Origin: Perkinsus olseni
Lineage: Eukaryota; Perkinsozoa; Perkinsida; Perkinsidae
Length of the DNA: 64,000 nucleotides
Assembly: GCA_013115135.1 (NCBI GenBank)
Contig: JABANP010000038.1
Location: forward strand, 1-64,000
Direction of reading: 5' to 3'
Shown here: positions 22,226 to 53,870 of the stretch, piece after piece
How positions within the stretch are numbered: the stretch's first letter is position 1
How the letters are laid out: every line of letters starts with the position of its first letter
Position numbers and translations under genes: made by a program
The notes under the pieces: generated by a model
What the model saw: the letters and a program-made list of their open reading frames with translations, nothing else
Told to the model about the DNA's origin: nothing
Databases searched by the model: none

Positions 22226-25200
22226 ATGTGGCCTCCTATTGTGATGATACTGTGGACTCAAAGGCTTCCTGGGTATCCGGACCCGCCACCTGATGAGTGG
22301 GGTGACTGGGATGAGTACCGCGATGACCGTGACCCTGGCTATCGTGTGCGTGATGTGGAGGAGGGTGAGCTCATGCGAGAGATAGCTCAGAAGGAGCGCC
22401 GCAGCGCTGGCCGTTCGACCAGTCACCAGGACTATGTACGTGCACTCAGAGCCTCCGTGCCTGGTCGTCACTTCATCATGGCAGCCTTCCTCGTTTGATC
22501 GACGCGAGCCATCAGCTGAGGCCCCCACTGGAATGGATGATGATGAACTGCTTTTGGTACGTGAACGCTCAGGCACATCCACTCGCTGCGAGTGCGCCTT
22601 CTCCTCCAGCGCTGGAACTTCTAACCTGGAAGGCTGCAGTGCAGTTCTCTCTTCCCTTCTGCCGCCAATGTGAATAACATACTCCTGCGTGGGCAGGCCC
22701 ACTCTGCTGCTGCTTCCACCATCGACAAGGATCCTGCAGCATCACGAAGCTCTGACCATTCCTCGGGTACGGCTGGAGATGAAAGCCTTGTCCCAGGGCT
22801 GCCTCTCGGAGGTGCTGCTTTGCCGTATAAACGTCACCAATATACCTCTGAGTGTGGACCTGCTCGAGCCTCAGGCTCCGAGCCCGAGAGGCCTCCAAGT
22901 CCGTCGTTTGGAGCATCGGCGGTGTCGGATATTCCCAGGGAGAGGCCACCGTCGCCGCCGAGGGTCGTCGACAGTTCGGCTCATCGAGGGCCGTCCGAGC
23001 AGGAGTCTCGTATCAGCTTGAGGTGTGTCTTGTGTATGGGTCCGTGCCGTGTAGCGGCGCGACTCGGGGAGCTATAACCTTACTCCATCGAGTATCCCTC
23101 ACGGTGTCTTGCTAGCAGGTACGATGCACACGGTAGGGCTCACGAAGTAACTGTTGTTAAGGCAGAGGTCACAGCTCGCCACGATGCCGCCATGTGGCGC
23201 AGGAATAACCTCATTTATGGCCCTCCTAGATCCGCAAGCAGAGACGACTTCTATCCGCTCAAATGGTACCACACTTTCCCCTTCTGCTGGCTTTCCTCCG
23301 ACCTTCACCAGGCATCGCGAGCCGTCGCTGGAAGCCATTCCGACGGTTGGGAGCAAGACCATGCGTACACCACCCAGGGCCGAATCCTGTGGGTCCATCC
23401 ATCCTCGCAACTGAGTTGCCATTCACCTGGCAAGGTACGTATGATGTCCTACCGTTGAACGTGGTCTACGAGCGGAATAGGACAGGGTTCGAGGAGACCA
23501 AGGAGTTCCAGGTTGTCACCAACATGGTCATCGCTGCGAGGTGAGGACCAATGATCATCCCCTCGACACACTCGCGCAGAAATCTGATAGCTTTGAGTGC
23601 CTGAGGGCGTAGCTCAATTAAAGGTCGAGAGGGGTCGGCTTTGGGCCTCAGTTGGTACGGTAGTGACTCCGTGTGTTGTGACAGATATAGAGTTACGGGC
23701 TTTCTTGGGTCAGCAGCCTTCAGCAAGGCTGTTCAAGCGTGGGATATGAGGTTGAATCAGCATGTACTCACCGCCCACTACCTGTCCTGTCTCGAATCGC
23801 GGTTCGATGTTATCAGGTATGCATGAAAATTATCAAAAACGACAAGGATTTTTTCGACCAGAGCTTGGATGAGATAAAATTACTCAGTCTCCTGCAGTTG
23901 AACGCTCCAGATGGGGACATCGACAAGACGAGGTGTCTGAGGTAGATCTCCCTCAGGGACCATGCTGCCCGTTGTTATCATAATCTACCGTAGAATGATC
24001 GACTATTTCTATCATAAGGAGCATCTTATTATTGTGACGGAGCTACTAAGGGACAACCTGTAAGGACGAGCATCGGTGTACGAGTACCACACGTTGCGCG
24101 TGCTGCCTAGATACGAGTTCTCCAAGCTCACTCGGGTAGATTCGCCCCAGCCCTTGCCGCCTGTTCCCGCCTTTGGAAGTCCCCTCAGTACCCCCACTGC
24201 GATGATACCTGTACTACCTTCATCTTGCCGCTGAGGCGAGCTCGTTGTCTTCAATAGACTTCTGCCTTAGGACCAAGCCCCCGTGTCCCAGTACTTCACC
24301 ATAGGGCGGCTGCAGAAGATTACGCATCAAGTAGGTTGGGACCCCCAGCCGATGGAGGCATAGGGTAGACCGCTCTCAGCTTGGGGGTAGACGACTTCCG
24401 GTTCACTCTGTTGACCTCTCCACCGTCTCCCGCAATGTGAGTTACCTATTCCTACAGGTACTCACCGCCTTGGAGTACATCCACTCCATGGGCCTCATGC
24501 ATTGCGACTTGAAGCCAGAAAATATCCTGCTGCAGAGCTACACTACCGCTTCCGTGAAGGTGCCATCCAATGGCGCCCCCCTTCGAACTTGTAGGCTTCC
24601 CTCTACCCAGGTTATCGACTTTGGTAGCAGCTGTTTCATCACTGATCATTTGGCTACTTACATCCAGAGCAGATGTTATCGTGCCCCAGAGGTCAGTACC
24701 GCTTCGCTCCGCCGATTGTTGAGCTTATTACGATACTTTAGGTCATCCTGGGACTGTCCTACGATACGTCGATTGACATCTGGTCACTTGGTTGCATAGT
24801 TGCTGAGCTCTGGACTTCAACTGTTCTGTTTCAGAATGATTCGGTAAGCAGTAGATGATTTATCCAACATAGACCGTACGTGTCCCCTCATCAGATCCAG
24901 AGTCTGCTCGCTCGCGTCATCGGTATCATCGGGCCCTTCCCAGAGCATATGATGCGGCTGGGAAAGTACCGTCGGGCACTTTGGATTCCCAAGGCAGTCC
25001 TCTTGCTCAGGCTCATACCACGTTATTTCACCCGTGATCGTCAAATCTACATGGAGCATCTGCCAACTAATGGTATGAAGGAAATGAATATCTCAAGATC
25101 AGCATCATGGGGTAGAGAAGGCCAACTCTCGATACTGTTGGCATCAAGCAGCATCATAGATAACCGTCAGCACCCTTCGCCATCTGCGGCGCCTCGCGTA

Positions 25201-25488
25201 CTGCAAATACTCGTCCCCAAGGAGACTAGTCTACACCAACGCATGCGTAGGCTTCATTACTGCGGAGCCTCTCATTCCGCCCTGAAATGCGACCACCATC
25301 AGGCACGAAAGATGAGGCTTTCCTCGACTTCATCACCCAGTGTCTCCAACTCGACCCCAACTTGAGGCCTACCGCTCGGGAAGCGCTGCAGCACCCCTGG
25401 CTCACTAAATCAAGGCGAGCGGCCTGGAGCTCCTGTACTCACCGTATGCGTCCCCTCCCTTCTCAACAGGTATCCAGATGGTTTGTGA
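22226..25488 (+). CDS. DYRK-family dual-specificity kinase (plant/alveolate DYRKP type)
   Basis: The kinase domain is spread over many short exons: 'RYRVTGFLGSAAFSKAVQAW', 'CMKIIKNDKDFFDQSLDEIK', 'IDYFYHKEHLIIVTELLRDN', 'ALEYIHSMGLMHCDLKPENI' (HCD instead of HRD, usual for DYRK), 'VIDFGSSCFITDHLATYIQS', then 'RCYRAPEVILGLSYDTSIDI', 'WSLGCIVAELWTSTVLFQND', 'LLARVIGIIGPFPEHMM', 'FLDFITQCLQLDPNLRPTAR' and 'EALQHPWLT'. The activation-loop autophosphorylation tyrosine is the Y of 'YIQSR'. 'GSAAFSKAVQA' and 'IIKNDKDFFDQSLDEIK' are diagnostic of the plant DYRKP branch. The long N-terminal part (22226-23600) is polar and Ser/Pro-rich ('ERPPSPSFGASAV'), and its exon structure is uncertain. The 3' end may use a GC-AG intron giving 'LTKSRYPDGL' and stop at 25486-25488. 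Confidence 0.88.
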
Positions 25489-25785
25489 TGTATCAATTAT
25501 TGCGCATTTCAACCGACTTTTCAGTTGCATTATTGTTGCGTCATCAATCGACTGACTCTGATACTCCCCACTCGTGTGCGTGCGTGTGTTTAAAGTCCAA
25601 CGCCGACAGTACGGCTAAGTTAGACTAGCACCGATGTAACATCTGACTCATTGGCTGCTACTATTAGAATGCCCGTGAGAGTTGCTCGACTTTTCAACGC
25701 TAGGCGGATTCTGTTCATACAAGTACATCACAGCAAAACAGGACGCTTCATAAACAACTGATGATAGACTGATGGGATATGGGCA

Positions 25786-28700
25786 TTATTGTGGCGCTGG
25801 GTCAGTTGTGACTTGGAAGGGGGTTTCCGTCTCTCCAGTCAGTTTTTTGATTAAGTCATCATTCCAGGCTTCCTGATAATCAGGTTCGGCCTAAAAGGGA
25901 GTTGCGTGTCCATTCGGGTTCATGCTAGCGTGATGTTCGCACTACCTTCCGCTCTTCAGCGATCTCTCCGAGCTGCCTGAACCACTCGCCCAGTGAGGTG
26001 CCGTTCCCCACAGTAAACTCATAGCAGCCCTCCTGGACCCCTTTCCGTCTTTATCAGTTCCAAGTCGTCCGAGGTTAGGATCTCCAGTGCCGGACTCTCG
26101 GTGTTAGACGCTCCTTCGGCCCGCGTGAAGCGTTTAGCAGCGAGCAAATAGTCGTATAGCGCAGTCTTGCACAACATTTCAGTCGAGCTCGGGTCGACCC
26201 CTTTGTTTATTGCGGGGTCTGGGAAGTAATTCTTGATGTCCCTCCATATGTCGCGGAGCTCGTACAAGCTGCCCCTGAAAAGAAGGCGTGTTATTCAACC
26301 TTGGGGAATCAGAGCAGCGTATTCCTGTTAGTCCGCTCACAGCCGTCAACGCAATGACTGCAGAGTGAGTATCTCCGTCACGCCTAGCTGCGGCGATGCT
26401 TGTGTAAACTGCTTATCAGAGCCTACCGTGGCGTGGTTATCCTATTGATTCGGAACTTTTTGCTCAGCTGGAGTGAATGCCTGAGGTGGCTAGAGCCTTT
26501 CTCCTCCGGAAGAACATTCTCGCCTTCAATGATGAGACGACAAAGTCCCGAGCCCTGAAAGACCGTAGACAAGTGAAGGGGCTAACAGATTAACGATTAA
26601 TTTCCCATCAGGTTTAGGAAGCTAGGAGAAGTCACGGAACGCCGGCATGTACAGGAGAAGTCCCAGCCTAATCGACGACAGTCCTAGCCGCTTATCGTTT
26701 ACATCTTTCAAATGGCGAAACAGTTTGATGCTGTCGTCTATGTCCGGGGTGCTTGTATACATATTTTCAATGAGTATATCGGCTGTCAATGAGGACTTCT
26801 CCACCAAGTATAGCCGTGGTTCTTTCTGGTCTCCCATTGCCTTCCACGACCCATCTCGCGACTCCATTTCTATTTGTTTCCGCACCAGCAGAGACAGTTT
26901 TCGGTAGAATCTTTCTCTTCTGCCGGTGTCAAGATACCGAACAGATCGCGTGACCAGGTCAACCAGTTGACTGTGACAGCTTTGTGAGACTTCTTCCTCC
27001 GAGGCAGTGTTAACGCTTGGATTGGAGGAGTGAAGGCGTAATGGTGTAACCACAGCACTGAGAAGCAGCAACACTCCAAGCGTCGTCTCCATCTCTATCG
27101 AGAAAGATTAGCAATGCTCTTACGGGCGCATCGCGCAATCTGAGCCGTGGCAATGATGCGTAAAATAACCGTTCTGAAAGTCATCGCGTGTTATGGCCAT
27201 CTCGTAGAAGGCATATTCCGGTGAAGCACCCATAGGGATGGGCTTGATCCTGATACTGCATTCGAAGTCCTGAGGAGGTATTAACATCTTCTAGGCGCTT
27301 CTTGAATAGCCATTGGTCATTCAAGTAATATTCAATCGACTAGTCATTCGGACAGCGAGCGAATGACAGCAGAGGATAAGTCGAACACCCGACGGTAGAA
27401 GGCAGTGCGCTCCACTCACTGCGCGCTGGCCATATCCTTTCTCCTCATCAGTTGATATTTGCTCCCGTGTATCTTCGTACAGCCTATCGAGTTTTTCTTT
27501 CCATTGAATGAGGAGTTTGCCGTCGACGCCTCTATCCTCCCCGTTGTCGAGGGCAATCAACGTTTTCCGCCCATTGGCCCACTCATGATTATCAGTGATA
27601 CTTTCGGTAAGAGAGAAGCCGAAGCCAAGGTGCTCACTCATCCCTTTCAGACAGACATCGAGGAGGTCGTGATCTGCCTCTTGTGGCGGCTCCGGAATGT
27701 CGTCGAGTTCAAGCTTCGATGTAGGATACAGATTGAGCCTAAGTCAGAATGCCACCTCTAGGGCATATCCAACCGGAGCGTCTATTGCCGTATAGATCGA
27801 TGAACGGAGCTAGAATCTCACTCTCCATCGCTGATCATCCTTATTTGCCTCCTTGTGGCGTCGTATTCGAAAGTGTAGTGGATATATAACGGCTCACCCT
27901 CCTCGTCGAGGTTGTCAGATCGGTACTCGTAGTTCAGGGCACAGTCAGTATTATCGAATGTCTGCAAAAAACAGCGGTTCAGAAGAAATCAAGGGAACAA
28001 TCGATTTCTTGTAGTGAGATGAGATTCACGCAACGGAAGGTGGTTCGATCATGGAAGGTGAAGACTCTGCAATACTGAGGACTGGTCGAAAATGGAGTAA
28101 ACGGTGATTGACGTGCTAGTTGTTGCTCACGTGTCCCTCCTACCGTTTTGACCTCCACCCAGTCATCGCTACTCTCCGATTGGGTCGCGGAGAACTCAGT
28201 CTCTAAAACTCTCTCCAAGGCTGCGTTCTCCGTGGTGAAGTCAAATAAATTGTCGCCTTGCTTGGCCTTCTCCAACTCGCGGACACTGACGATCGACTCA
28301 TCCGTTTTCACTCTCATGGACCTCCGAAGACTCGCTGACTTCGACCCGAGTTGTTTGCCTCCAATTCTTCTACTCAAATATCCGTAGATCGCCTCTTTGC
28401 AATTTCGAGGCTGCTTGCTGGAGCTATCGAGAGACCGCCCCAATAGGGATTGCACGGTTTTGATCAGCCTCCACCTACAACAACGACGTTACGAGTCTTC
28501 GCGCATCGGATTCTTTCGCCCTGTTGGGACGGGAAAATCTAAATGACCAAGATCCCAAGTTGATCGTAAGTGGGACGTGGCTCGATACACCTCGAATCAA
28601 CAGGCTTAATTCAATTTGCGAGCTTACTCGTTCCTTCTAAACATTCGTACATCCCTCTTGTCATCAGTGAACTCTAGATAATAAGAGTTTCTACCAGCCG

Positions 28701-29148
28701 CAGAGTACTTCAATGAGCATCTAGCTTCAGGCTCCTTAGGTAGAGAGCTCTGATCACGAACAACCTCACATCCACGCTGCTCTCGCAATGAACGTTCGCA
28801 TCTCGAATGAGGGCAGAGAGGGACGTTTCACGACTCGTGATGCAGAGACTCCAGAGACTGATTGGGGAACCGAGGGAAAATATGCATGTTGACCTTCTTG
28901 GATGAGTATGATGACGCAGGATACACGGGCTAAGAATCCCCGTCTTACCTTTCTTCTCCGACTGAAGAGGCCCTGAAAACGAAACAGGATACGTGACGAA
29001 CTCTAGGAGGCCACCTTGATGGTATCAGCGCTCGACGTGGCTACATGAAACCACCACCTCCACCTCGCCCCACCTGGCTTACCCTGATACTGTGTAGCCC
29101 ATCACTGGGCATTAGGATGCTGAAGATGAGGGTGAGGCCAAAATACAT
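25786..29148 (-). CDS. Modular secreted protein, family copy alpha (unknown function)
   Basis: I do not recognise this family. ATG 29146-29148 starts a signal-peptide exon ('MYFGLTLIFSILMPSDGLHS'). Strand-type and helical modules then alternate. The strand modules are keyed by 'ARCSLKYSAAG' (~28.7 kb), 'TDCALNYEYRS' (27.95), 'FECSIRIKPIP' (27.26) and 'GLCRLIIEGEN' (26.56). The helical ones are 'NCKEAIYGYL' (28.4), 'DVCLKGMSEHL' (27.66), 'SCHSQLVDLV' (26.97) and 'MLCKTALYDYL' (26.18), with 'SLGEWFRQLGEIAEE' after the last. The final exon reads 'AEPDYQEAWNDDLIKK' and stops at 25786-25788. Introns after the strand modules can all be placed in phase 2. Near 26045 the reading shifts by one base, so this copy may be damaged or an intron there is unusual. 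'METTLGVLLLLSAVV' at 27092 looks like a second signal peptide but falls mostly inside a phase-2 intron. Confidence 0.65.
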
Positions 29149-29301
29149 CCCGGACTAAAAATGGCCCTGTGAAACCGAGTAGTTGATGAGAATCACGAAG
29201 AAACACGGCGTGCAAGCCAAGTCGTGGATAGGTGGGCTTGCGACCGTCGGCTCAACTCGCAATGTCCCTTCTGATCGCTAGGCGAGAGCATTGAGACGTT
29301 C

Positions 29302-32300
29302 TCACGCTCTCAGGCCTGTGACCTTCATATTGCGAATAAAGACTCCCCAACAGGGCGATTCCCAGAGTTCCGCTGGACGCAATGGAAGCTTACCAATCAG
29401 AGCTCGTACCAGGAGCTTTGCAAATCCCAGGACCCAAGAACGCAATCTCTCAGTCTTGTAGACATCAGCAAGAAGTAAGATACAGCAATGACAATGCGAG
29501 TAGATAAGTTTGGTATTCCTCGCTGATTCACAGAGGGGAGAGAAGGGCCTTCGGCTCTGAATAATCTTCGAGCAAGAATGTGTCCACCTGAGCAACAACA
29601 AAAAAGCATGCCTCGAACTGAGAAGGTGTATCAAGGAGGAATTTGTGAGTCATACCCGAATTTGTGTAAATTCTACCTTACTTTGCGAGCAATGGAGATG
29701 AGCTTTTTCATTTCAAGAGCGAAATCTAGGCTGGTGGTGGTGAACCGTCGCTCGGACTCCTCCTTGCACGACTCGGGGTCGAGCGTAGGAAATCGCTCGC
29801 TACTTGTTGACGTAGCAGCAGCAGCGGCAATCAAATACGCTATGTAAACTTGCTTGCACAGTTCTGATGTCGTCGTGACATTGCTAATCCCCAGCCGAGG
29901 GAATACCAATAGTTTTTGCAGCTCTGCCATGGATCCCTCTGGCTTATAGAATCTCATCCTAAGCGAGGAAGCCATCATGATGAATGCGTAGCATAGGGAG
30001 CCTTCCACTAGAGCGTGACGTTTCGAGTCTTACTCCTCTCCATGAATGTAGTTGATACCGAATGATTGGTTGAGTCCAAGGGCATATTGCTGCCCAGATC
30101 GGCCGAACGCGGTGAAGTGACATACAGTGTCGTCCTGAAGGGCGCCCGACGTTGAACGAAGGTGGAGGAAAGTGGAACCGAAGTGGAATGCCATGAAGCC
30201 GGAGCCCGGAGCGTGTCCTCGAGAGAAGCTACTCAGCATGCTTACACGCATTAAAACCTGTCGTTGTATTCGAAAATGTTTCTTCCGATCAGGGTCAACT
30301 TCCATGGCCTCCATGGTCTGCACTATGAGCTTGCTAGCTAAACTACTCGGATGAAGTTGATATAGCCTTGGATCATTTTCCCAAGACGAAATCGCCTTCC
30401 ATGCGGGCTCCAGCTCCAATTGCTTTGCTCCGTACCGAGCTAAGCCGAAAGGTGTTTGAGGCCTTGTCGCGTTGCTTGAACGGCTTTTCAGCGTTTCTAT
30501 GAGCTTCTTCTGACAGCTGTCGGCTTTCCCGCTCTCTCGAGGGAATGAACTCGGAAGAAGTACGTAGATTCCCCACGATTGCTGGACCAATCTGAAAAGC
30601 TAGGCCAGGTGCGCTCTAGTCGGTACTGTTCCAGTCCGAGTTGTGTGGCATGCTCGGCCGGTTGACAGAGTCTCAGAAGCGTACTCACGGCTTAAGGAAA
30701 TTCACGTCATCCACGCTGGAAAAGTAAGCCTCAATGAGGCCATTTTTCTTCACAGCAAGCCCGTAATGGCCGTTAAATCTGTGTTGGTTCGAATGGGATG
30801 AAAATCGAGCGATACAATCGAGGTCCTGAGCGGGAATGACAACACTCGAGAGCCGAAGGCGATCGTCTGGAGTAGATATCACACAAGTAGGAGTCTTACG
30901 GATCTCATGAAGTATCCAGAGATGGATCCCTCTTTCATAAAGTTGGAGATCTTCCTGTACAGGACTTCCAGACTTGACTCCCATTCCTTTAATATACCGG
31001 TATTCACTGCACTGTCGTCGTGTTCAGCCAACCCTTCCACAGTTTGCCGGATCTCCTCTTCGGAATAAGGAGTCGAATGACCAGTCTCGAGCTCGCTCGC
31101 AGAATGCAGCCACCGAGCTAAGGTTTCATCGCAGCAGCATCTTTCTCCCTGACCGCCGCCGTCAGTCAACTTGAATCTGCGGCTCTCTTCTACTCCCCAG
31201 AAGGGTCCTGGATAAAGTGAGAGTCTGACATAGCGGAGTTGTGATCTGAGCAAAGGGTGCTGGACCAGCTCACATGCCGTCACTTAGGCTTTCAATATAG
31301 TTGGAATCCGCTCGACACTGGAGGCGGTACTCAGCCGGGATCCATTCATTCTTTGCGTCACCTCCACACACGATCTGGTTGAACTTGTATACTAGAGAAT
31401 GTGCATTGGGGTCAACTACCTGCGAGGAGTTCAGTGATTTCAACCACCTACGCGCCGAATTCGAAGGCATACCGCGGAGATAGATTTCCCTTGTTCTAGG
31501 ATCGTTCCGCTGGCTTCTTCGAACAAGATGCCGAGAAGGTGGTCAAGAAATCCCGATTCAACTGCTGTGAATATCCCATTTTTTCCACGGTCTAGCCTCT
31601 TCAAAGTGGTAGACACTCGTTTTTTCTTGTGCTCTGGTGTCTCCGGTGGGAGATGCATAGGTCCAGGCTTGGGAACAGTCTTGTCCAGGTCGACACCTCT
31701 ATGTAGGTAGCTGCTCAAGGCTTGCTCGCACTTTTTCGGATGCTTAGACAATGAGAATACTGAGCGATCTGTGAAGTAATCCGTGGGTATCAGCCTCAGC
31801 CTGTCAGCAAAAACCATGCCTCGTAATGGCAAAGCGTCTCGATGAGCGTGATGGGAGAGCACCTACTCGTTCCTGCGGAAGAGTTCTATCCTTCGATAAT
31901 CTGGGGCAAGCTCGAGGTAAAAGTCAGTTGGTCCTATCAGACGCAGTCCACATTTCTTGGGGACCTGAGCACCCGAAACACCACTATACATCGTCATCAC
32001 AAGCCGGGTTCGGATGAATGAGAGGGAAGAACATCTTTTTGGGGCTCACGTTTTTATTGCCTCGGCTGCCGCGCGAACCCTGAGACAGAATGCTTTCACT
32101 GTTCTTGCAACCGCCAATCTGCACCGATCAACCAACTCTGCACCGTATGCGAATCATTAATACCATTCATCGTAATTTTGGAACTAGGCTCTGCTTGGAA
32201 AAGTGTGATGGTACTTCGCGTAGCCCTGAAAGTTACTGTCTCACTTTTTTCAGCTTGGATCCACTGCTAAGCTCGAATGGTCCAAAGATGGAGAGGAGCA

Positions 32301-32328
32301 CGAATGCTTTGAGAAGCGGCTTGGACAT
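29302..32328 (-). CDS. Modular secreted protein, family copy beta (unknown function)
   Basis: ATG 32326-32328 starts a signal peptide, 'MSKPLLKAFVLLSIFGPFEL', with a GTGAGA donor after 'GSKLKK', the same position as in the other copies. A poorly resolved short exon follows. Then strand modules 'KKCGLRLIGPTDFYLELAP' (31.95 kb), 'LVYKFNQIVCGG' (31.40), 'LDCIARFSSHS' (30.83) and 'TVCHFTAFGRSGQ' (30.13) alternate with helical modules 'KKCEQALSSYLHRG' (31.73), 'CCDETLARWLH' (31.13), 'SCQKKLIETLK' (30.52) and 'ELCKQVYIAYL' (29.87). The strand modules end 'ELFRRNE' and 'ESLSDGM', mirroring 'RMFRRNE' and 'RMISDGE' in copy alpha. A tail exon with 'RSWVLGFAKLLVRALIG' leads to the stop at 29302-29304. 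One Cys per module is typical. Confidence 0.62.
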
Positions 32329-32588
32329 GAGGGATGGCTACTGCAGAGGTGGGTCGCATCAGAGTGGCTTCAGTCTCTTATCGGGAGCGTTGCTCCAAGG
32401 TCCACCTTATTAGTAGTACAAGAGTCACGCGAAGTACACACAGCGACAGCACATGGCATACATCATGATAAACGGTGTAAAACCTTTACAACGGAGATCT
32501 AGCTTCAGATTACGACAACCGAACTTCTAAGCATACTAATTCCTTCTACCAACGAATTCAGCGAACGTTCAAACGTCAGTCGAAACGA

Positions 32589-33618
32589 TTACACGACATC
32601 TCCTTCCGGCTCAGTCTCGGCCGTCCGTTGAGCCCTCGGGGGCTCAATCGAGACTTCTAGCATTCTTCCATCGTCCACGGTTCCTCCGAGCTGTTCGAAG
32701 AGGGCATCCAGCGCCGGTCTCATGAACGTGCTGTATGTCAGGTCGATGACCCCGGGGTCTTTGTAGCCCGATAGGACGCGCGAAATCCTCTGGGCAGGAT
32801 CCATGGCATTCTCTACGCGGAATGTCTCCCTGCTGGTCGAGTCTTTGGAAGCGGTCGAAAGAACGTGGCCCAATGCCGCACCGCAATCGACTCTATTTTC
32901 CTCTGGTATGTTCCACGACGAACTCAGCTCGCCTTCTGAAGGGCGTTCCAAAACTTCCCTGAAAAATTCATCACTTGAAACTGACTCGACCCTCCAGTTC
33001 GCTGGGATCAGCCTACTCAGCTCTCTCCATTCTCTGTATTCCGTCTAAAGTCGGCGTGAGTTCAAGATAGATAGCAGGTTGGTTAGACGCTTTATCCATG
33101 AGCAAGGCGCATACGGGCTGAATATTGAAGCGAGGAGGCGTAGTTCCGTGCGGCCATCTGTGTTTTGACGCACCTTGCCCGTCTCGTGAGACGCAGGTCT
33201 TTTTTCTCCATCCTTGCTGCCACTTATGCGCTTAATTGTCTTACTGAATCGCTGAAAAGACAGAGGTCGGCCCGGGCTTCCGAGTCCGAACGGCAATGGC
33301 ATGCTATCGCAACGAAATTCTGGCTCAGTCCCTTCGAGGGAGCCGAGGCTCTGCTCAGAGTTCGACTTCAGACTCGCCAAGCCGTTCACCTTCTTATGGA
33401 GTATTTCTATACGCCTCTCTCTCACCAATACTGGTGCAATGCATTGGCGGTGCTTCTCCATGGGCAATATCATTCGAAACACCGCGACTCGCGGTGTTTC
33501 GAATGATATCGCCCCGGCCGTGGTCCGCGAGATCCCGCGTCTTCCTGAGAGCGGCCGCTTCAGATTCAATCGCAGCCAGGATTCCAATGAAGATGATATT
33601 CAAGAAGGTGAATTGCAT
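32589..33618 (-). CDS. Modular secreted protein, short family copy delta
   Basis: ATG 33616-33618 opens a convincing signal peptide, 'MQFTFLNIIFIGILAAIESE'. The first exon also encodes 'DIIRNTASRGVSNDIA', which comes from a near-perfect inverted repeat (33462-33514). After an unresolved join come 'RFSKTIKRISGSK', one strand module ('PVCALLMDKAS', 'PAIYLELTPTL'), a phase-2 intron, and one helical module ('SSSWNIPEENRVDCGAALGH', 'FMRPALDALFEQLGG'). It ends 'ETEPEGDVV' with the stop at 32589. With only one module pair it is the smallest copy, yet the intron phase and order match the larger ones. A decayed close relative lies at 51990-52441. Confidence 0.58.
33462..33514. repeat. Perfect-type inverted repeat (26-bp arms, 1-nt centre)
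   Basis: The arms GGGC-a-ATATCATTCG...CCGCGA and TCGCGG...CGAATGATAT-c-GCCC pair across a single central C at 33488 with one mismatch. It lies inside the first coding exon of copy delta, so both strands encode nearly the same peptide ('IIRNTA(S/T)RGVSNDIA'). Confidence 0.9.
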
Positions 33619-33911
33619 CGCGGAAGTACTGAAGTACTGCCTATGAGTATCACTCCTTTCAATGGCTCCCTTGTTCGTGGATTCCCGATGGAACGATTAT
33701 TTCAGGTAAACTACCCCCTGTGTATGTGACAAAGCAAGAGATGTAGACACTTGAGTGTACACACGGTAGATTGATAAATTACAAGAACAGCACACAACTG
33801 GTTATCCTCAGCTCATGACATGGAGCTCACGCATCGATCAGTCGGACCACTCTGCATACAGCTATGTGATACATATGATATGAGGATAATCATTGGTGAG
33901 CTAGGGAGGTC

Positions 33912-36900
33912 TTAGCCTTCTCCAACCCAAGAACTCGGTCGAGGTATCGCGTAGTCGCCGTCCCTATCAGCAGAAACACACGGGTCAATCACAGTAATCG
34001 GAAACGAGAAGGCTGAACATCTAGCGTGAGACTTACTCGTCAGCGAGCATCTCTTTGGCCACCTCCCCGAGCACAGTTAGAAGCCTTCCCAGAGCTGAGC
34101 TTGCAGCCACGTAGTAACGTCCAGCCTCGCGCTCAATGATACCCTCAAGATTAATAAAACCAGGGCTTCCTCTTGGCAGCTCGTTAATGTATTTGGCTGC
34201 GGCTGGTAGCAGCCGAGTCGTCTCAAGATAGTAGACAAAAGCAAGTTTGCAGAGCTCTGCTGTGTTCTTCCCGCTCGGTGTCCCATGGCCCATCAAATCC
34301 TCACTTGCCTCTGAGCTACTCTGTGAGGCCGTTCTTCCAGGAAGAGAGCTTGTGTCCCAGCGGCTATACCACCCAACTGATTTCAGATCCTGCTCGATTT
34401 TATCCACATTCACCATTACGGACCTGCAGCACGTCCGCATCCTGACTGATGGCAGCATGAATTCGAGGACGTACCCTTCGAGTCCAACAAAGGCTAGCCT
34501 GAAAGAACGGTCGAGACCGACGCGGTAGCCTCCTTCACTGTCCTTCATTCGCAGTTCGCAACGCGGATTCCTGGGGTCCCGGGCAAGGTTCTGCAAGATA
34601 GTCGACTACTTACCGAAGAGCAGCCAGCAATCGTCCTACCATTGCACTCATCTTTCCTAGCTCCTGTAGGTAATCTTCATTTCTGTTCAATCGCTGGGCG
34701 AGACCGAAGATAACGTCCGTGGTCAAATCCGAGGCAAGTGATTGGAATGCAGTTGGTCGACGAGCCTTCCAATCCAGCCGAGCCCAGTCATTTCTCGCTT
34801 CATTTGCGAGTTGCTGGTGAGCGAATCCTCGTAATTCGTCGAAGAGCAGCTGCCTCCGGCGTGGCTCTGGCATTGACTCCACGAGGTAATTCCATGAAGC
34901 GGCCAAGATCGTAGCAAGCTTGTACTCGCAGGACCCAGCCTTGGTGGTGGCGGAAGTCGACGAAATATGCGAACTTAGGTTCGGGATGACAGACGAAAGG
35001 GGTATGTTAATCCTGAAGGGTTCGAGGTGAGACATGGAGAATACCGTCAGACTGACGGCGTCAGTGATCAGCAGTGTGCTTCCAAACCATCAGTCAACTA
35101 CGGAACCGGTTTGTGGGCGATGAGTTCGCTCTCTTACCGCGATGGAGGTTTATGTCGAGAGAGGATGGATACTGCGAGGAAAGCCTGATTGTTCTGCGCG
35201 ATATCCAAATGTAGAATGACTCCAGCCGGAGAGGTATTCACCATCTTGTGTAGACTGCACTGTGTGTCCTGCAAACGACAATGCGAAATCGACGTGGCGG
35301 AAGGTATCGTGAGAACACTACTTCATCCATGGAGTCTGCTCTTGAAGGATTAGCAACTGCTTTTTCCGCGAAAAGGCTATAGAGAGATAGTATACACTTG
35401 TGTATATCCTGGAGTATTTGGATGTCCAGCGCTTTGTCATCAACGGCGTGAGATCCATCAGGCGTAGTTCTCATAGCAGTGAGGGTCGCCAGCATCCTTT
35501 GCCCATGATCCGGAACAACTGGCTCGTCCTTAGCGCGATGCCGGAGATATCCGATCCTCAAGAGAGTCGCTATCGCCGTAGGGCAGTCCTTGATGTAAGG
35601 CATTGAAATTACTCTATCGAGCTCATCACGCACATCCACTGTAGGCGTGAATGATCTCTTGAAGAGTAATCTCATTCTAAACAGGAATCAGCTGCAGAAT
35701 CGCGGAAGTTACAGATCTTCCTACTGCGAGAGTGTGAAGCTATGCGCGTAGAATATGGAGAATCGGTGTTTACCTTCCGTCGCTGATCATGTTGATGCTC
35801 CCGGGGTAATAGCCCAAACGTAAAGGCCCCTTTAAATTATCCGGCGGGCCCGTAACTTTATAATTAAACTCGCAGGTCTCTGTATCTAGCCCCTGAGAGG
35901 TACTAGATTCCAGACTTTGTTATTAGAATCACAGAGACTAGAGGAGACGGCCTACCTCCCGCAAATCGATGGCGGTTTCTTTCCCATGCATGTTCTCGAA
36001 TGCAAAACCAAGTGCTGCTAACGCACACTTATGGGCTCGGAATTGGGTGGAGGTTTGTCCCTTACGGGCCTTCTCAGTCGACACCACCATAGTCGGGTGT
36101 TTGCCGTTCAAGGCTGTTTTCTCTGCATCGCCGCATAACCATCTCATGGTGCTGCCCTTGGGGGAAAGGGAGTACTGTGTGCCATTAATGATATATTCAT
36201 TTAAAGCATCCTCGCAGCTTCGAAGTTTTCCGTTCTTCGTAAGTTCGCTAGCGCCTCTGATCACAGTGGAAGCTCTTCCTGCCTCTTCCGAGACTAGGGA
36301 GGGGACTATCATGGTGCTGAAGAGACGGGATCAATCGAGCGACTGGTAGACGCGTCATGGAAAAGCCTACGAATCTTTCCGGAAGCTCAGTAGCCGGCCC
36401 TCATTTGGATCTAATACGAGATGGAAGTCTCCTGCATCGCCAGTACCATGAAGAACGCATTGCCGGGGTGGAAACTGATCAACAACGGATGGATGACATC
36501 GATGGGTGAGAAAACAAGGGGACTCACCGAGCGAACGACGGCCCTCTTGCCCGCGAGAACCTCCTCGACTTCCTTGTATAAGTCCTCTATTATCGGGCAC
36601 AGTGAGTCGTGCTCGGACAGATCGAACAACATGAAGCGATTGTTGTACGGAGTGGAGCGAATGGCCTCAAGTCGCTTCATGGCCACCTCCGGTGAGATGA
36701 GACGCTTCATCTCGCAGTTGGCCGTTGAAGCTGTCCGATGCTCTCCGATATGAACGCCCATTTTCAAGATGCTCTCGAACGCTTGAAGACATCCTTCCGG
36801 CTGCGGGTCGATAATGACAACATTGGGGTTCTCCTCTATTGGCAATGCGTCGTAACTAACAACGGCACGTAATTATATATCCTTATAGACTCTCGAAAAC

Positions 36901-37369
36901 GTCGGCCTTTTTCGGACCACTGCTCAGCATCCACCCCGGTCGAGATGTTGAGATACTGGGGCCCCTTCCTTACGTGCCAAATTGGAACATTTCGATGCGG
37001 GTACGGTCCGAGGTGAGCTGCAAGTAGTAGGAGTTCGGGCCAGCCGTTGAGTTGATAGTGTAGGAGGCAGCACAGGTGTCGGGCTCGGGCTCCACTGCCT
37101 GACTTAGAGCACTTAAAACTTCGATGAGTGACGACATTCGGGACGCTGTCATCACCTGAGCTTTTGATCTTGTTCTTGACCTCAGCGAACGTAGAGACCT
37201 GCCTATGGATCTGCCTAGGGATCTGCGCAGGGAGTTGGCGGCTTTCTGAGTCGGACCAGCATCTCAATAGTGTCTTAGGCAAATCGCTTACCTTCATCGA
37301 AGACCCTAGCACCTCGTCGTAGCGCTGCAGACTCAGGAGTAGACCAAAGGTGAATGATAGACGCCGCAT
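33912..37369 (-). CDS. Modular secreted protein, family copy gamma, longest member (unknown function)
   Basis: ATG 37367-37369 starts 'MRRLSFTFGLLLSLQRYDEV' (signal peptide), with a GTAAGC donor after 'GSSMK'. Five module pairs follow. Strand modules: 'DTCAASYTINS' (37.05 kb), 'RQCVLHGTGDA' (36.45), 'ETCEFNYKVTG' (35.88), 'TQCSLHKMVNT' (35.26) and 'PRCELRMKDSE' (34.56). Helical modules: 'EGCLQAFESIL' (36.79), 'RSCEDALNEYI' (36.21), 'DCPTAIATLL' (35.58), 'SCEYKLATIL' (34.93) and 'ELCKLAFVYYL' (34.25). The strand modules end 'RIEMFQFGT', 'LLSFRKDS', 'NMISDGR', and the introns after them fit phase 2. The last helix 'SALGRLLTVLGEVAKEML' matches 'SLGEWFRQLGEIAEE' of copy alpha. An acidic tail ('DEDGDYAIPRPSSWVGEG') ends at TAA 33912-33914. 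Likely secreted; no enzymatic motif is seen. Confidence 0.68.
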
Positions 37370-38422
37370 AGGGGAAAGTTGCTCACTCTGAGACGGTAAG
37401 GGCGGTTAACGAAACATCCACTTGTGTGCAAGTGAACGGCAGCCTTCGCGTCCCTCCCCCCACAGCACAGTTAGCCATGCCATGCGCGCTGAGCGTTGAC
37501 TTTGACCGACGCAGCAGAGGTACGAGCCTTAAGCCTGCAACCATGGACAGGGCGGTCTTATGCGAGAATGTATACAAAGGCCGATAATGGAACAGTTACT
37601 TTCGTGCTGCGAGCTCAAACCGAGGCGAGCGAAACTTGCTCTTTCACTGCACTTGCACGCATCAGATGTTGCGTACGATGTCGTCGTCGTCGTCGTCGTC
37701 GGATGATGATGATCATCATCATCCTAAGTTGAGTTGATTTGAGATAACATGACATTGTAGCTCCAATTTTTTCTGGTCCGATTATCATCCCTAGGCCTCG
37801 GGAGTGAACAGTTTGTGACTTTGCTGTGGTCCTGAGGTCGTTTAGGTTGAACTCCCGTAGGGTCTATCGGCTCTAAACTGAGTTCAGGGAACAGCAACAA
37901 CAGCAGCAGCGGTGGCTCTTAGTGCTGTTGAAGCGGTAGTACCGACTCGTCGAGAAGGTTGTTAGTGTCATTTTCGAGGTGATCCGAGACGCTAATTTTC
38001 GTCCGCAGGCGGCGGCTCACGTCTCCTAGCATGTTCGTTAGCACATAGCTGAACAGGTCACATTTTCGGTCTGGCCTGTAAAGGAATCGCGTTCGAAGAC
38101 TTCACCAACGCATCGGGTGTTTCACAGATCGGTTGATGAGAAGCCTTCTGAGGGCGTTGACTTGTCTGAGGAAGGCCCGCCTCCTTCCTTAAATTACCTC
38201 GCCTGTTGAACCCCACTTTGCGGAGCAACAAAAAGGAGCCCCGTTCTCTCTTAGTGACTTGATGCACTACGTTGCTATCCACTGTAGTCTTGAGGGGAGC
38301 GTAGGTCGGAGGACAGGTCCGTGCACGACGTAGTCGAGGCTGCTTGAACGTCCCGAGGATGCCGGGTCGTGTCTCCTGATTTCTAAGTTGTAGTTTTTGC
38401 TACTGTACCATCCTCCTTCGCC
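37370..38422. other. Divergent intergenic region between family copy gamma and the proteasome gene
   Basis: About 1.05 kb between two head-to-head genes, so it should hold both promoters. It contains a CGT/TCG triplet run followed by a 24-bp perfect palindrome (37701-37724). No coding region is supported. Confidence 0.55.
37701..37724. repeat. Perfect 24-bp palindrome of GAT/ATC triplets
   Basis: GGATGATGATGA is followed directly by its exact reverse complement, next to a run of about seven CGT/TCG triplets (37680-37700). This is simple-sequence DNA able to form a hairpin. Confidence 0.85.
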
Positions 38423-39584
38423 ATGTCGGGTTATGATCGTGCTATCACCGTATTCTCGCCCGATGGTCATCTCTTCCAAGTTGAGTAAGTATTCTGGGTA
38501 TCCTAGGTTGACCCAAGCAAATTATCCATCATAAGATACGCTTTGGAGGCAGTAAGAAAGGGCACGACAGCCGTTGGAGTTCGAGGAAAGGACACTGCCG
38601 TCCTTGCCGTTGAGAGGAAGGCCATTCCTAAGCTCCAGGACCCCAGGTATGTCACCAGGTCCTCTGAACCTAGTCGAATGCTCTACATCAGGACGGTTCG
38701 GAAGATCCTAAAAATCGACCAGCATGTGGTGCTAGCCTTTGCTGGTCTCAACGCTGACGCGAGGGTAATAGAGGGTAGAACCGCCGTATTCAAAGACGTG
38801 ATTTGGTCGATTGCAGGTATTGGCTAATAAGGCTCGTGTAGAGTGTCAGAGCTATCGTCTTAATGTCGAGGACCAGCCCACAGTAGACTACGTGGCTCGT
38901 TATATCGCGGGAGTTCAACAGCAGTACACCTACAAGGGAGGTCATGAGGGAGGGTTCTATCGGCTCTATCGTATTCGTCAATGACAGGACGTATTACTAC
39001 TACCTCACATGTGCTCGAATGCGCCTGAGCGTAATTTGTCTTTCCTCAGGCGCTCGCCCATTCGGTATTTCCACTTTGATCATTGGCCAGAATGAAAATA
39101 AGAAACCACAATTGTAATAAACATCCCTACAGTAGTGCTGTGTTGAGCTCACTCTCAACTGTTGTCGTTGTTGCAGGTATCAAACCGATCCTTCCGGTTC
39201 CTTCAACTCGTGGAAGGCTGCTGCTATCGGCAGGAACAGCAAGACTGGTAATATTCACAACTACTGAGCCCGCCTCCACGCCCCCTTCTCAGTGACTGAT
39301 TACCTCGAGAAAAACTACAAGGAGGACATGGCTGAGCAGGAGACGATCGATATGGCCATCAGGGCTCTGCTGGAGGTTGTGGATCCCAGTGGGAAGAACG
39401 TCGAGGTCTGCCTCATGAAGCCTGATGGCACTCTTGTTATGCTCGAGGACACTGTGGTGGAGGATCTTTGCAAGGTAATGCTGCCATGGAGACACTCATG
39501 ATGATAATACTCACCCTAACTCCTGATCAGTCGCTCGATGAGGGTCTCGAAAAGGCCAGGCAACAGCAGCAGCAGCGCGCCTGA
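38423..39584 (+). CDS. PSMA7: 20S proteasome subunit alpha type-7 (alpha4)
   Basis: The start is ATG 38423 ('[20 protein letters not shown]'), the N-terminal proteasome alpha signature, continuing after an intron as '[20 protein letters not shown]'. Later exons read '[20 protein letters not shown]', 'ADARVI', '[20 protein letters not shown]', '[11 protein letters not shown]', '[20 protein letters not shown]' and '[20 protein letters not shown]'. The C-terminus is '[17 protein letters not shown]', with the stop at 39582-39584. Exon order and motifs match alpha4/PSMA7 along its whole length, including 'VGVRG' and 'DARV'. Like other alpha subunits it has no N-terminal catalytic Thr. At least five introns, all short except about 110-150 nt near 39050-39175. 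Confidence 0.95.
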
Positions 39585-39708
39585 GTAATAAACCACCATT
39601 TGTGAGCGTACTAGGAATGATAGTTTCTCACACCGATCTTTGTTCGTTTTGTTGGTTACGGCCGAGGCTAGTTTTCGAAGGTAATTTTTCCTCTCTGTTA
39701 TCACCGGC

Positions 39709-40132
39709 ATGGTAGGCGTCTCCCTGCGGGCACTCTGGCGTCTGACAATTCTCCGCTTCGCCATTGTTACGGTGATTGTTAACCTACCCTGCACGCGTAA
39801 GTTCATCGGTCATGCTATCAACACCATGCTCATCCCTGTCGATATACTCTCCAACGGCGACCCGATGATCATGGACACGAGCGGTAGTGCAGTGAGTCTG
39901 TGTCTGTCATTAATGGGCTCTGCGCTACTACATCGACTCTAGCCTTGAGGTGGATAAGGCTCACCCTTTTTGGCAACAACAGCATCTTTTTGACACCCCC
40001 ACCATCCTGTACCATACTACTCCATGCTACACTCTACCGTCGATCCTGCTGGCCGTCACGTCCGCGGGGCTTTTTTCGATCATCATATTTTCGTACGGTA
40101 CTGAGCTGTGCATTGATTGTTACATTGTATAA
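39709..40132 (+). CDS. Small two-helix membrane protein, unknown
   Basis: ATG 39709 begins 'MVGVSLRALWRLTILRFAIV' (first hydrophobic helix), then 'HAINTMLIPVDILSNGDPMI'. A GTGAGT donor after 'TSGSA' and a CTCTAG acceptor lead to 'EVDKAHPFWQQQHLF' and a second helix, 'LPSILLAVTSAGLFSIIIFS', ending at 40130-40132. The phase of the join is off by my reading, so one boundary is wrong. The family is not recognised. Size and two-helix form would suit a small organelle membrane protein, but that is a guess. It starts 125 nt after the proteasome stop. Confidence 0.4.
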
Positions 40133-41210
40133 AGGGAGACCGTTCCATGTCAGTAGGCGTCTCCCTTATTACTGCTGCGTCGTCTGAGCACATGAGATAA
40201 GCTGTTGAGGCCACGCAGATGATGAACATGATGATGGATTCTGTAGTAGCCAATCCTATTAGACAACTCTGATTTGTGTTGCTTGCTCTCCGCCGATTTT
40301 GTTGCTACTTGCTCTCAGCTGATAGCATCTTCATAATGTCAAACGTCACACCGTCTCGTGTCGGGTAAAAGTACAACCGTCGTATTGGCCAACCGTGACT
40401 TCATCCGGGATATCAGGGATGCTTGTTGACTAGATATCCTCGTACGAGCATTCACTAACGCACCGGGCGAATCGTTCTCAACGGCGGTGTCGAGTATAAT
40501 CCAACAGACCATAGGCTAGAGGTTCGGCAATACCTCACCAGAACTTAATCACAGGGAGTGGTAGTAGTCACCTGCTGCTCACTGCCAGCCAGGGGGTCTG
40601 AGAAAACTGTGTAGCGGGGCATCCATTCGGGTGTGTCTCTTCAAGCGTGATCATACTGAGAGAGAGCTGTAATCTCATTCTCCCCAATCGTGGGTAATGG
40701 TTGAAGGTATTGTAGCGGCATGGTAAGGCATGGCTGACTTCCTCCCTGTGTTCTGCTTCGGATTGCTCCTTTGGGAGGTGCTGTAGCAGAGCGAATAAGC
40801 AGCGCAGTACACATCAGAGCTTGCAGTCGAGAGCAATGCTCTCAGAGCATCCCTGAAGCCTGGAGCCTCGGTGAACCCAAGGCACGATGACTACTCAATT
40901 GAGGGGCCAGATGGTATTTTCTGCTGCTCCACGGAGATCTTTCAACTCGGAACATCTCTGAAAGTTTCAAGTGGAAGAGTTGGATAAATACTCATAGATG
41001 ATAGCAGCGTGGCCTTACTTGGCAGAGGTTTCGTCCGACTCACGGTGTCGCATCCGCCTGCTACCCACTTCCACCCTCATGGTGCCTCCATACTGTATAG
41101 CATGTTGTGTTACCAGTCTATGGTCAATATCTTTACTCATGGGGTGCAGCTCGCCACCACTCTAGGCAGTCGCAGTGTAGTCCTCTATATATAGTACTCA
41201 CTGCAGGGTC
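40133..41210. other. Intergenic region, nothing recognised
   Basis: About 1.1 kb. A 61-codon frame at 41009-41194 has no supporting features. No repeats or RNA gene seen. Confidence 0.5.
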
Positions 41211-41878
41211 ATGGATGAGAGAGGGGCGTCAGAGACGGCCATGATACCTCAGCCGACTGGAGAACTCGGTGATGGGCCTTCTGGCAGCAGCAGTCCGCCC
41301 TTCAGTCCGGCTCGCCTTGTTGTAGGTGTTTCCACCCGTCCTACTACGGCGGCGGATTCGGAGAAGATGACGGGCGATGGTGAGCACGCGAGGGAGAGGA
41401 TGGTAGAGCAAGTAGATGAGATGGCTACCGAGGGAACGGTAGCTAGGCCATGCTCATCCCGATGCCGAAGTGTCTCGACAGGTCCTCAACCTAAAGGCAC
41501 GGTTCCTCATGGATTTGAACACGAGGGACTTCCCTAAGGCTTTGGAGACGGCGAGGGAACGTAAAGAGGAGAGCTGTCGTCGCTATGGGGCATCAGAATT
41601 GATGGCCATTTCCGGGTGGGAAGTGGACGAACCTGGTGGTGATCTCTTCAGTATCGGCTCTGGACCCTGAGGATGCCACCGTGAAGGAGTTCCAAGTGGT
41701 CATCCAAAGATGGATGGATCTATTATGTCGGTGCCGATGAGTTCCCTCACTTGTACATTACTTGTTTACAGGCATGAGAGACGATGATGATGATGATGAT
41801 GAGGCGGAGAAGGATGAGAGCTCAGACCATTCTTCCAGCAACGGGGATGGGCATGCCGAGATGGACAGTTGTCCTTGA
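41211..41878 (+). CDS. ERICH2-like (glutamate-rich protein 2) small acidic protein
   Basis: ATG 41211 starts a Ser/Pro/Glu-rich region ('MDERGASETAMIPQPTGELG'). After a short intron, the helical core reads 'DAEVSRQVLNLKARFLMDLN' and 'TRDFPKALETARE'; then, after a further intron, 'ALDPEDATVKEFQVVIQR'. A last exon is strongly acidic ('MRDDDDDDDEAEKDESSDHS') and stops at 41876-41878. The pattern of a helix pair (aligned with the ERICH2 core 'A..LC..IL.YEP.N..A..F') is what I recognise. ERICH2 is tied to cilia and sperm in animals, but that role is not shown here. Confidence in the family is moderate, in coding status good. Confidence 0.55.
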
Positions 41879-41985
41879 CTAGGATGACTTGCGTTAGTCA
41901 ATAAGGAGGCAGCCAGGAGCGGTCTACAGCAGCCCCTCGGTGCCGCTGCTGTCCATCCGGTCGGATCTTCAAACCCAGATACATC

Positions 41986-51337: not shown

Positions 51338-53870
51338 CTACGTTCGCCTTCCAGAAGGGAATACTAAGCGGATAGTTCGTAAACTTTGACCCGCCCCCTC
51401 GGGTTCTAACATGGCTACAATCATTGGACCTTGTGAGCATAGTTCACTCTGGTTTTCTCTATTCTCTTGGTGTGCACGATACGATATGCCTAGGAAGCGA
51501 GCCTCAGGTCGAGGATCTGAACGTCCGAAATATTTGCGATGTATCGGTATGAGCGAACCACGGGGGAGCGATACCAGGAACATTCGCATCCTATCTACGC
51601 CCTCGGTCGCTGCCTGAACCACGGAGAACGTCTCGACCATCACGGAATCCGGAAATCTGCTTTGATACGGCTAGAGGCTTTATGGTAAACGTCCCCGATT
51701 ATCATGATGATGATATCAGATCCCTGCAATCGGGCAGAGCTAGGAGCTACGTGCTCTCCTACAGCTCACGCCAGGGCCCACTCACTCGATAACACTACCT
51801 GTCCTCAAATAGCACACATCAAGGCCTCACGGATAGACCATGATAAAAATAGGTCTCAACTGGATATTTGACTTCACAGACCAAGAAAGTCTGAGTTCGG
51901 TGAATCTTCATAAATATAAGTGATACTTCATTTTTGCAACAACTCAGATCTCTTAAGCTCAACCTGTCTCTTCTCCCCTGTGGGGCGTCTCAGTCGGAAG
52001 CCCCACTCTCTCCTATGTGTCCTCCAAGTTGTATGAATAGGTTGTCCAATGGCGGCCTCAGCAAGGTTCTTTGCGTGAGGTCACAAGGCTCGGAGTCCGG
52101 GCAGTCCGATAGGATCAGTGATATCAACTTCGGATCGATCGGCTCCACCAGCGTGGCAAACGAAAAGGAAGCCGCATGAAGGGTGTCACCTAGTGCCACG
52201 CGACAATCAGTCGCCTCCTCGCTGGGTACGTTCCAGAAAAAGTGCCTCGTCTGAATAACGCGTCAGCAATTTCCTGAACGTTCATGGAAGAGATGCGGAC
52301 TAACCCGAAGGTTCGCGATGGCTTGCTTACTTCCCTCTCGTCATTTTCTTTATTTTTTTCAGATTCGGTTCAAGCTCCAGGTAGATAGCAGGGCCGTCGC
52401 CCGATTCCTCCATGCGTAGGGCACATATAGTCTGAATTTTGGAGCCAGGAGAAGGGGTTACATTCGCAGCGCTAAGAGTTATAAACGCACCTTCCTCTCA
52501 GTTCGAACGTCTTTCTTGTCACCCCTGCGGCCTCTCGCTCCACTCGGCTTCTGACAGAAAGAAGAACCACTTGAAGTTACCTCATCAGAGTGTGTCGGTA
52601 ATGAAGATACAGATAGAAAGGAGTCGCTCACACACTAACCCCCCCCCTCGCCTATCGTTGATAGTCTATCGAGAGCCCCGAGGGCTGGAGTTAATTGAGT
52701 AACCTTGCGAAGCCAGGGAAGTATTGTAGCAGGTTGCTCTTATTACGAAGATCTTCCTCAACGTGGACGTTCCGGAAGCGATCGAAGGGAAGGTTGCAAT
52801 GAGAATGAGGTATGGAACGGTGAATCGCATGGCGGGAGGTCGAACGAAAAACTAATTGATGACTTTCCTTAGATGAGCTAGACCTAGCGTGTCACGCATC
52901 CGCGAACTTCGCGGCGCGAAGCCGTTACAAGAACACCATGAGTATGTTCATCGAACATTTCCACCCGCTCCCGATATGTGAAAAGACAACAAAAATAAAA
53001 GTTACAGTTGAGGCAGCAGATAGAGACGGCCAGTCTGATAAATTAAAAAGCCTCTATCCATCGGTCATTCCGTTGTGCATACACATCCATTCGAATGGCC
53101 TCGGGCACTGTCGAGTCGACTGTTCATGTACCAGTGACTGCAGCAGACTCGGTTGGTCGCTCCGATGATGAGCTGAGGACATTGAGCCCCACATGCATTC
53201 TACGCTACCCCTCCTACTCCCATTCATCAGCTCGATCGAGGTATCGTATACCGGTTGTCCCCGCAATCAAGAACAGAGAGCCTGAGCGAGGGGACTCGAC
53301 AGCAATGACACGGATGAGCGTTGGACATCGTCACCATCATTTACTCCTCTGTCACCACCATTCTCTCTCGAACAAGCATCAGGATTCTCACCAGAGCCGG
53401 GCCCTCAAATACCGCATCATATTCATTCTCCGTTGCTACACTGTAGTAACGCGACGTAGGGAGATATTTGGGAATATCAGCTTGAGGGACAGGGAATAAG
53501 GGTGAGAAAAAGACGGGTATTTCAGACGCAAGACCATGTCTCGTCTCATGTGGCGAGCGAGGACTTCATATGGATTCGTCGCGCGTGCCCCGAAGAGCCC
53601 GATAGACGAGGTGGATATCGGTCTAACAAACATTTGCGCATAAGGGAGAAGGGACTCCGAGGACCTTCAAGCTTGAGCGCCCGACACGCTTCCCGCCGCG
53701 CCAAGCTGCCGGCGATGAAATCCAGAAAGTCCATCCCTCTCCGACCTGCAGAATCTCGGAGCTTGATTCATCGCATGTGACCACGAGATACTCCGTCCGC
53801 ACCAATGTCAGCTGCAAGTGCTTCACTTGCGTGCAAGTTGAACCCGAGTTGTTTAGAGGACCGATATATC
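51338..53870 (-). pseudogene. Decayed locus of the modular secreted family
   Basis: Minus-strand fragments with family-like pieces but broken frames: 'SELCSQGPMIVAMLEPEGAG' (about 51.4 kb), the clear strand-plus-helix pair at 51990-52441, 'MVLRLKYPSFSHPYSLSLKL' (about 53.5 kb) and 'CTQVKHLQLTLVRTEYLVVT' (about 53.83 kb). No signal-peptide exon or continuous exon chain could be assembled. Plus-strand frames of up to 134 codons overlap this region (53095-53499) and have no recognisable family. Confidence 0.4.
51990..52441 (-). pseudogene. Close relative of family copy delta (strand module plus helical module)
   Basis: Minus-strand reading 'IQTICALRMEESGDGPAIYL' aligns with 'IQPVCALLMDKASNQPAIYL' of copy delta. 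After an intron-like gap, 'FFWNVPSEEATDCRVALGDT' aligns with 'SSSWNIPEENRVDCGAALGH', and 'LLRPPLDNLFIQLGGHIGES' with 'FMRPALDALFEQLGGTVDDG'. The GTAAGC donor is phase 2 while the frame at the acceptor is phase 0, so the join breaks the reading. The C-terminus is cut shortly after the helix. It is most likely an inactive duplicate, 20 kb from the main array. Confidence 0.6.

Follow-up and report, generated by a model that had tools for sequence, protein, structure and literature searches.

Modular, putatively secreted proteins encoded by a tandem gene array in Perkinsus olseni

Clustered, lineage-specific, secreted proteins built from several domains are of a familiar general kind among parasites. 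The SRS and 6-Cys proteins of other alveolate parasites carry signal peptides and repeated domains with cysteines, and their genes occur in clusters. Their domains are beta-sandwiches with four to six conserved cysteines. Multicystatins string tandem beta-plus-alpha domains into a secreted chain, and in cystatin-like inhibitors a sheet of four or five strands wraps around a helix, with a QxVxG loop. Within the alveolates, Perkinsus is placed close to the base of the dinoflagellate side; to our knowledge, little is known of its secreted products. Here we describe a family of modular proteins from the clam parasite Perkinsus olseni, named S-H after its repeated pair of exons. It is encoded by an array of four genes and a fifth, separate gene in a stretch of 64,000 nucleotides (the window) from contig C312, which belongs to an assembly of 61.5 Mb.

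The four array genes, gamma, delta, alpha and beta, lie head to tail on the minus strand (Table 1). Their repeated element, the S-H unit, is one short beta-type exon (S) followed by one longer alpha-type exon (H). In gamma, alpha and beta, a signal-peptide-like exon leads into five, four and four S-H pairs, respectively, and then into a short tail exon. In delta, a linker separates the signal-peptide-like exon from a single S-H pair. The initial annotation had described four adjacent minus-strand genes with signal-peptide-like first exons and these same numbers of module pairs; order, strand, starts and counts all agree with it.

The models were made by a simple spliced-gene search followed by manual correction. 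The gamma model is identical to an NCBI protein, P0004 (FOZ60_009413, 872 amino acids), at 846 of 861 aligned residues. Every difference falls within the exon after the signal peptide, and all five S-H joins are the same. The alpha model equals P0001 (FOZ61_009301, from isolate FOZ61) at 611 of 633 residues without a gap, an agreement that is only partly independent because P0001 was used in setting two alpha joins. All 14 S exons of the array start in phase 0 and end in phase 2. This rule guided the choice of some joins, so that the 14 cases are not independent everywhere; they are independent for gamma, whose model was made before P0004 was seen and agrees with it at all five pairs.

Gene ends are predicted less uniformly. 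A partial NCBI model from FOZ62, P0002 (FOZ62_029062), joins alpha to the first part of beta and includes the beta N-terminus. P0003 (FOZ60_015536), which represents alpha on contig C767, is shortened and shifted, and our first automatic pass merged two pairs of neighbours (gamma and delta, alpha and beta). These disagreements weigh against the gene ends given here, which are therefore provisional. Alpha plus beta, or gamma plus delta, might be a single longer gene in which some 'signal peptides' are internal hydrophobic stretches. We regard such fusion as improbable: for gamma and alpha, respectively, P0004 and P0001 stop at the same place as our models, each gene has its own hydrophobic start, intergenic gaps of about 260-380 bp separate the genes, and delta and epsilon (the fifth gene) stand as single-module genes. 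All P. olseni matches are annotated by NCBI as 'hypothetical protein'.

Coding constraint can be read from C767, which carries window 23776-43654 in the same order at 96.5% identity and has copies of four of the five genes. The lower limit is the start of the C767 stretch compared, and the match may extend past it. C767 may be another haplotype or a segmental copy. Over 25.4-37.6 kb, the two sequences differ by 313 substitutions and 19 length differences. Divergence is 0.045 at synonymous sites, 0.012 at nonsynonymous sites and 0.041 in introns, counted with 17 of 2403 codons skipped and with beta followed no further than its frame end. The deficit of nonsynonymous change is significant (p 1.3e-13), whereas no difference is seen between introns and synonymous sites (p 0.65). 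Three of the 16 length differences not divisible by three fall in predicted exons, though exons make up 7240 of the 12200 bases (beta's last exons not counted). These three lie at an alpha exon edge, in delta's uncertain first exon and in beta's last helical exon. Because nonsynonymous divergence is about one-quarter of synonymous divergence and introns change at the synonymous rate, the array genes look real and are under constraint. The same deficit, together with the pattern of exon length differences, led us to reject a non-coding or artefactual array.

The copies also differ in ways that touch individual models. The frame of beta's last helical exon ends early in the window (91 codons, against 133 in C767, stop to stop), which may reflect a sequencing error or an allelic difference. 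A near-perfect palindrome of 37 bp (window 33487-33523) lies in delta's first exon and is 97% identical to the opposite strand of C767. The 5' structure of delta is unsure because the window and C767 differ in length around this palindrome. The identity between C312 and C767 breaks off at window 43654 (about 43,889 in C767), beside a cysteine-rich gene with a weak TNFR-like match, and C767:43,889-53,999 gives no match to the window. This break may be a haplotype rearrangement, a segmental copy or an assembly join.

S-H modules contain two aligned cysteines, one in each half, and 14 of 15 modules carry both; some have further cysteines that do not align. This bears out the earlier impression of a conserved cysteine in almost every S or H module, and the pattern predicts that the pair is probably joined in a within-module disulfide. 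Units pair by position, clearly for alpha against beta and less clearly in gamma, and different positions diverge more from one another than from their same-position counterparts. The array paralogs share roughly 21-33% identity over matched parts. Profile comparison supports homology of position 1 with position 2 and with delta and epsilon. Homology of position 4 is borderline by this measure, and that of position 3 rests on architecture.

Because the units match by position, their sequences suggest that a chain of fixed order (1-2-3-4) was copied whole. Each protein would be a chain of one domain type, with about four beta strands, mainly from the S exon, preceding helices from the H exon, and with a probable disulfide between the two halves. 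An ancestral large protein with four domains in the order 1-2-3-4 would have given rise to alpha, beta and, more tentatively, gamma by whole copying, and gamma would have acquired an extra position-1 domain. The single-domain genes delta and epsilon would be relatives.

Epsilon is a delta-like minus-strand gene at about 52.8-52.0 kb, beyond the array (25786..37369). The family profile matches window 52497-52330 with an E value of 5.6e-4, which becomes 2.6 when delta is excluded from the profile. Inspection of the surrounding sequence identified a signal-peptide-like start (MRFTVPYLILIATFPSIASG), a basic linker and a single pair of S and H exons. The alignment of delta with epsilon has 38% identity, and each gene recovers the other genome-wide (E 1.6e-9 and 7.1e-9). 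Epsilon thus has what defines a member: an S exon followed by an H exon, a phase-2 S end that fits the phase rule (the exon upstream of S is not fixed), a cysteine in each half, a signal-peptide-like start and a significant match to another member. A DNA-level search found no second copy of it. Just downstream, on the minus strand at window 51338-51670, is a frame with 'VDRMRMFLVSLPRGSLIPIHRKYFG', which by eye resembles the hairpin of strands 3 and 4 in S-H modules. The family profile gave no match for this frame, which is possibly a decayed member.

Representatives of known families were sought in three libraries. A Pfam-A scan of ten alpha and beta exon open reading frames, P0001, P0004, beta to its frame end, and the delta and epsilon modules returned no family at cut-off, the best score being 15.8 bits against a cut-off of 27. 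NCBIfam, scanned with the same set minus the exon frames and beta, returned no family up to E 1. Three profiles were compared with PDB chain sequences: A1 and A3, made from position 1 and delta (A3 also from position 2 and epsilon), and A2, made from whole proteins. Their best E values were 0.83 (A1), 0.29 (A2) and 0.32 (A3), none significant. The initial annotation recognised no known family, and the libraries, nowhere near cut-off, provide none.

Searches of protein databases gave four matches in all, every one from P. olseni (P0001-P0004). They found no relative outside this species among about 8000 candidates scored in each, a depth that does not establish absence from P. marinus or P. chesapeaki, and their sensitivity was limited: a search with gamma in the query alignment missed P0004. 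Scans of prokaryote and viral contigs with P0004, which detect close relatives only, encountered short patterns in 32 and 1 stretches, respectively, and no relative. A literature search that included passages of PMC2868825 and PMC9550989, and did not cover the P. olseni draft genome of Bogema et al. 2021, found no description of the family in what it reached. On these sequence comparisons, the S-H family is new to the libraries searched.

Within its own genome, eight protein queries recovered the five genes, the C767 copies of four, and four weak matches (E 0.11-1.2). Such searches barely detect paralogs at 28% identity (the beta query reached the C767 alpha copy only at E 0.1), and five genes is a lower bound. 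The weak matches on C25 (E 0.47), in a region that appears by eye to be mobile-element-like, and on C90 (E 0.11), which scores at best 2 bits on the family profile and is not significant, were judged to be chance. The other two weak matches lie on C199 and C284 (E 0.59 and 1.2). The description of the family as 'expanding' is accordingly weak: there are at least five genes, and no further convincing member was found genome-wide. As a separate observation, C25:51000-60999 contains frames that look integrase- and transposase-like by eye.

The S-H proteins share putative signal peptides, repeated domains with cysteines and gene clustering with the SRS and 6-Cys proteins, a likeness that comes from general knowledge of those families rather than from direct comparison. 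However, S-H modules usually have one aligned cysteine per half in place of the SRS and 6-Cys patterns. With two aligned cysteines in 14 of 15 modules and no Pfam match, they do not fit either family. The architecture of multicystatins is also similar, but in S-H modules the predicted strands come first, and neither Pfam nor PDB gave a sequence match. Cystatin-like inhibitors likewise have no sequence match to S-H proteins in Pfam.

All five genes encode a hydrophobic N-terminal core; in the four longer models, no hydrophobic stretch downstream of it reaches membrane length. Both statements come from hydropathy alone. S-H proteins are therefore predicted to enter the secretory pathway, as the initial annotation proposed in calling them secreted. 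Upstream of the first module, all five also have lysine- and arginine-rich segments, picked by eye, with 11 such residues of 39 in gamma, 9 of 20 in epsilon, 8 of 26 in delta, 5 of 10 in alpha and 5 of 13 in beta, compared to 12% in modules. In delta, this segment is the end of the linker and does not directly follow the signal peptide. The segments might be a second targeting or processing signal of lumenal proteins from a parasite compartment such as the vacuole or a relict plastid. We think this rather unlikely, given that the stretches have no recognised common motif, that no compartment marker is present, and that those of gamma and beta are, from general knowledge, equally like convertase sites.

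We favor, with a probability of about one-half, a small P. olseni family of soluble proteins that are secreted or reside in the secretory lumen and most likely act as multi-site extracellular binding or scaffold chains. Each position holds a domain of its own that diverged long ago. The domains are therefore likely to have different functions, as one would expect of a multi-site binding or scaffold chain more than of an avidity repeat. An avidity repeat of equal modules was rejected by the comparison of module positions. The chain would sit at the parasite surface, in the wall or in the surroundings, with each domain binding something different.

A competing possibility, in line with the host interaction suggested in the initial annotation, is that the parasite releases the proteins into its bivalve host, where they would act on cells or immunity, and that the family diversifies under host pressure. 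Whole-gene ratios of nonsynonymous to synonymous divergence (gamma 0.25, delta 0.45, alpha 0.14, beta 0.35) show constraint, and at the whole-gene level nothing points to diversifying selection; the genes found number only five, and module order is largely kept. We consider a host role doubtful on these grounds, even with signal-peptide-like starts, paralogs that have diverged as far as they have, no relative detected outside P. olseni, and epsilon found on one contig only (though C767 synteny ends before that point). More speculatively, the S-H unit could be a previously undescribed, Perkinsus-restricted domain, possibly with a new fold, whose four specialised copies make a secreted multi-ligand protein at the boundary with the bivalve host.

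The family provides a concrete profile to seek among further Perkinsus species and in data on secretion. Its gene models are good, its cysteines are conserved, its intron phases recur and its domain order is largely fixed. Such a profile would let host-facing and wall hypotheses be told apart.

Table 1. Window coordinates of S-H genes and modules, with exon limits
Feature	Position	Strand	Details
gamma gene	33911..37369	-	signal-peptide exon 37369-37292, five S-H modules, tail exon 33963-33911; joins agree with P0004
gamma module 1	36528..37155	-	S 37155-36974, H 36855-36528; NCBI splicing before the S core differs (basic stretch)
gamma module 1'	35956..36474	-	S 36474-36371, H 36316-35956; matches module 1 of alpha and beta, hence a second position-1 type
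gamma module, assigned position 2	35322..35892	-	S 35892-35774, H 35676-35322; resembles gamma module 1 too
gamma module, assigned position 3	34640..35268	-	S 35268-35138, H 35012-34640
gamma module, assigned position 4	34037..34590	-	S 34590-34475, H 34423-34037; weakest match
delta gene	32589..33618	-	signal-peptide exon from 33618 (3' end uncertain), linker exon 33430-33174, module S 33117-33017, H 32958-32589
alpha gene	29528..32328	-	signal-peptide exon 32328-32245, four S-H modules, tail exon 29587-29528; FOZ61_009301 is P0001
alpha module position 1	31473..31964	-	S 31964-31867, H 31800-31473
alpha module position 2	30900..31419	-	S 31419-31274, H 31224-30900; lacks first-strand cysteine
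alpha module position 3	30246..30825	-	S 30825-30689, H 30591-30246
alpha module position 4	29682..30134	-	S 30134-30034, H 29958-29682
beta gene	25786..29148	-	signal-peptide exon 29148-29083, basic exon 28972-28949, four S-H modules, tail
beta module position 1	28144..28776	-	S 28776-28628, H 28474-28144
beta module position 2	27420..27961	-	S 27961-27822, H 27738-27420
beta module position 3	26703..27269	-	S 27269-27124, H 27057-26703
beta module position 4	26022..26554	-	S 26554-26427, H from 26274
epsilon gene	51990..52830	-	signal-peptide-like start 52830, basic linker (exon ends not fixed), S 52431-52331, H 52245-51990 (weak H acceptor)

Among ten neighbouring frames compared with Pfam, three reach the cut-off (a mitochondrial carrier, a DEAD helicase and an Ap4A phosphorylase), four have weaker matches (kelch, TNFR-like, WD propeller and kinase) and three have none. 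A long tandem repeat occupies window 59055-60860; its unit of about 20 residues is of the EPKGASVMATNKTVGTAD type, and it is open in several frames on both strands.
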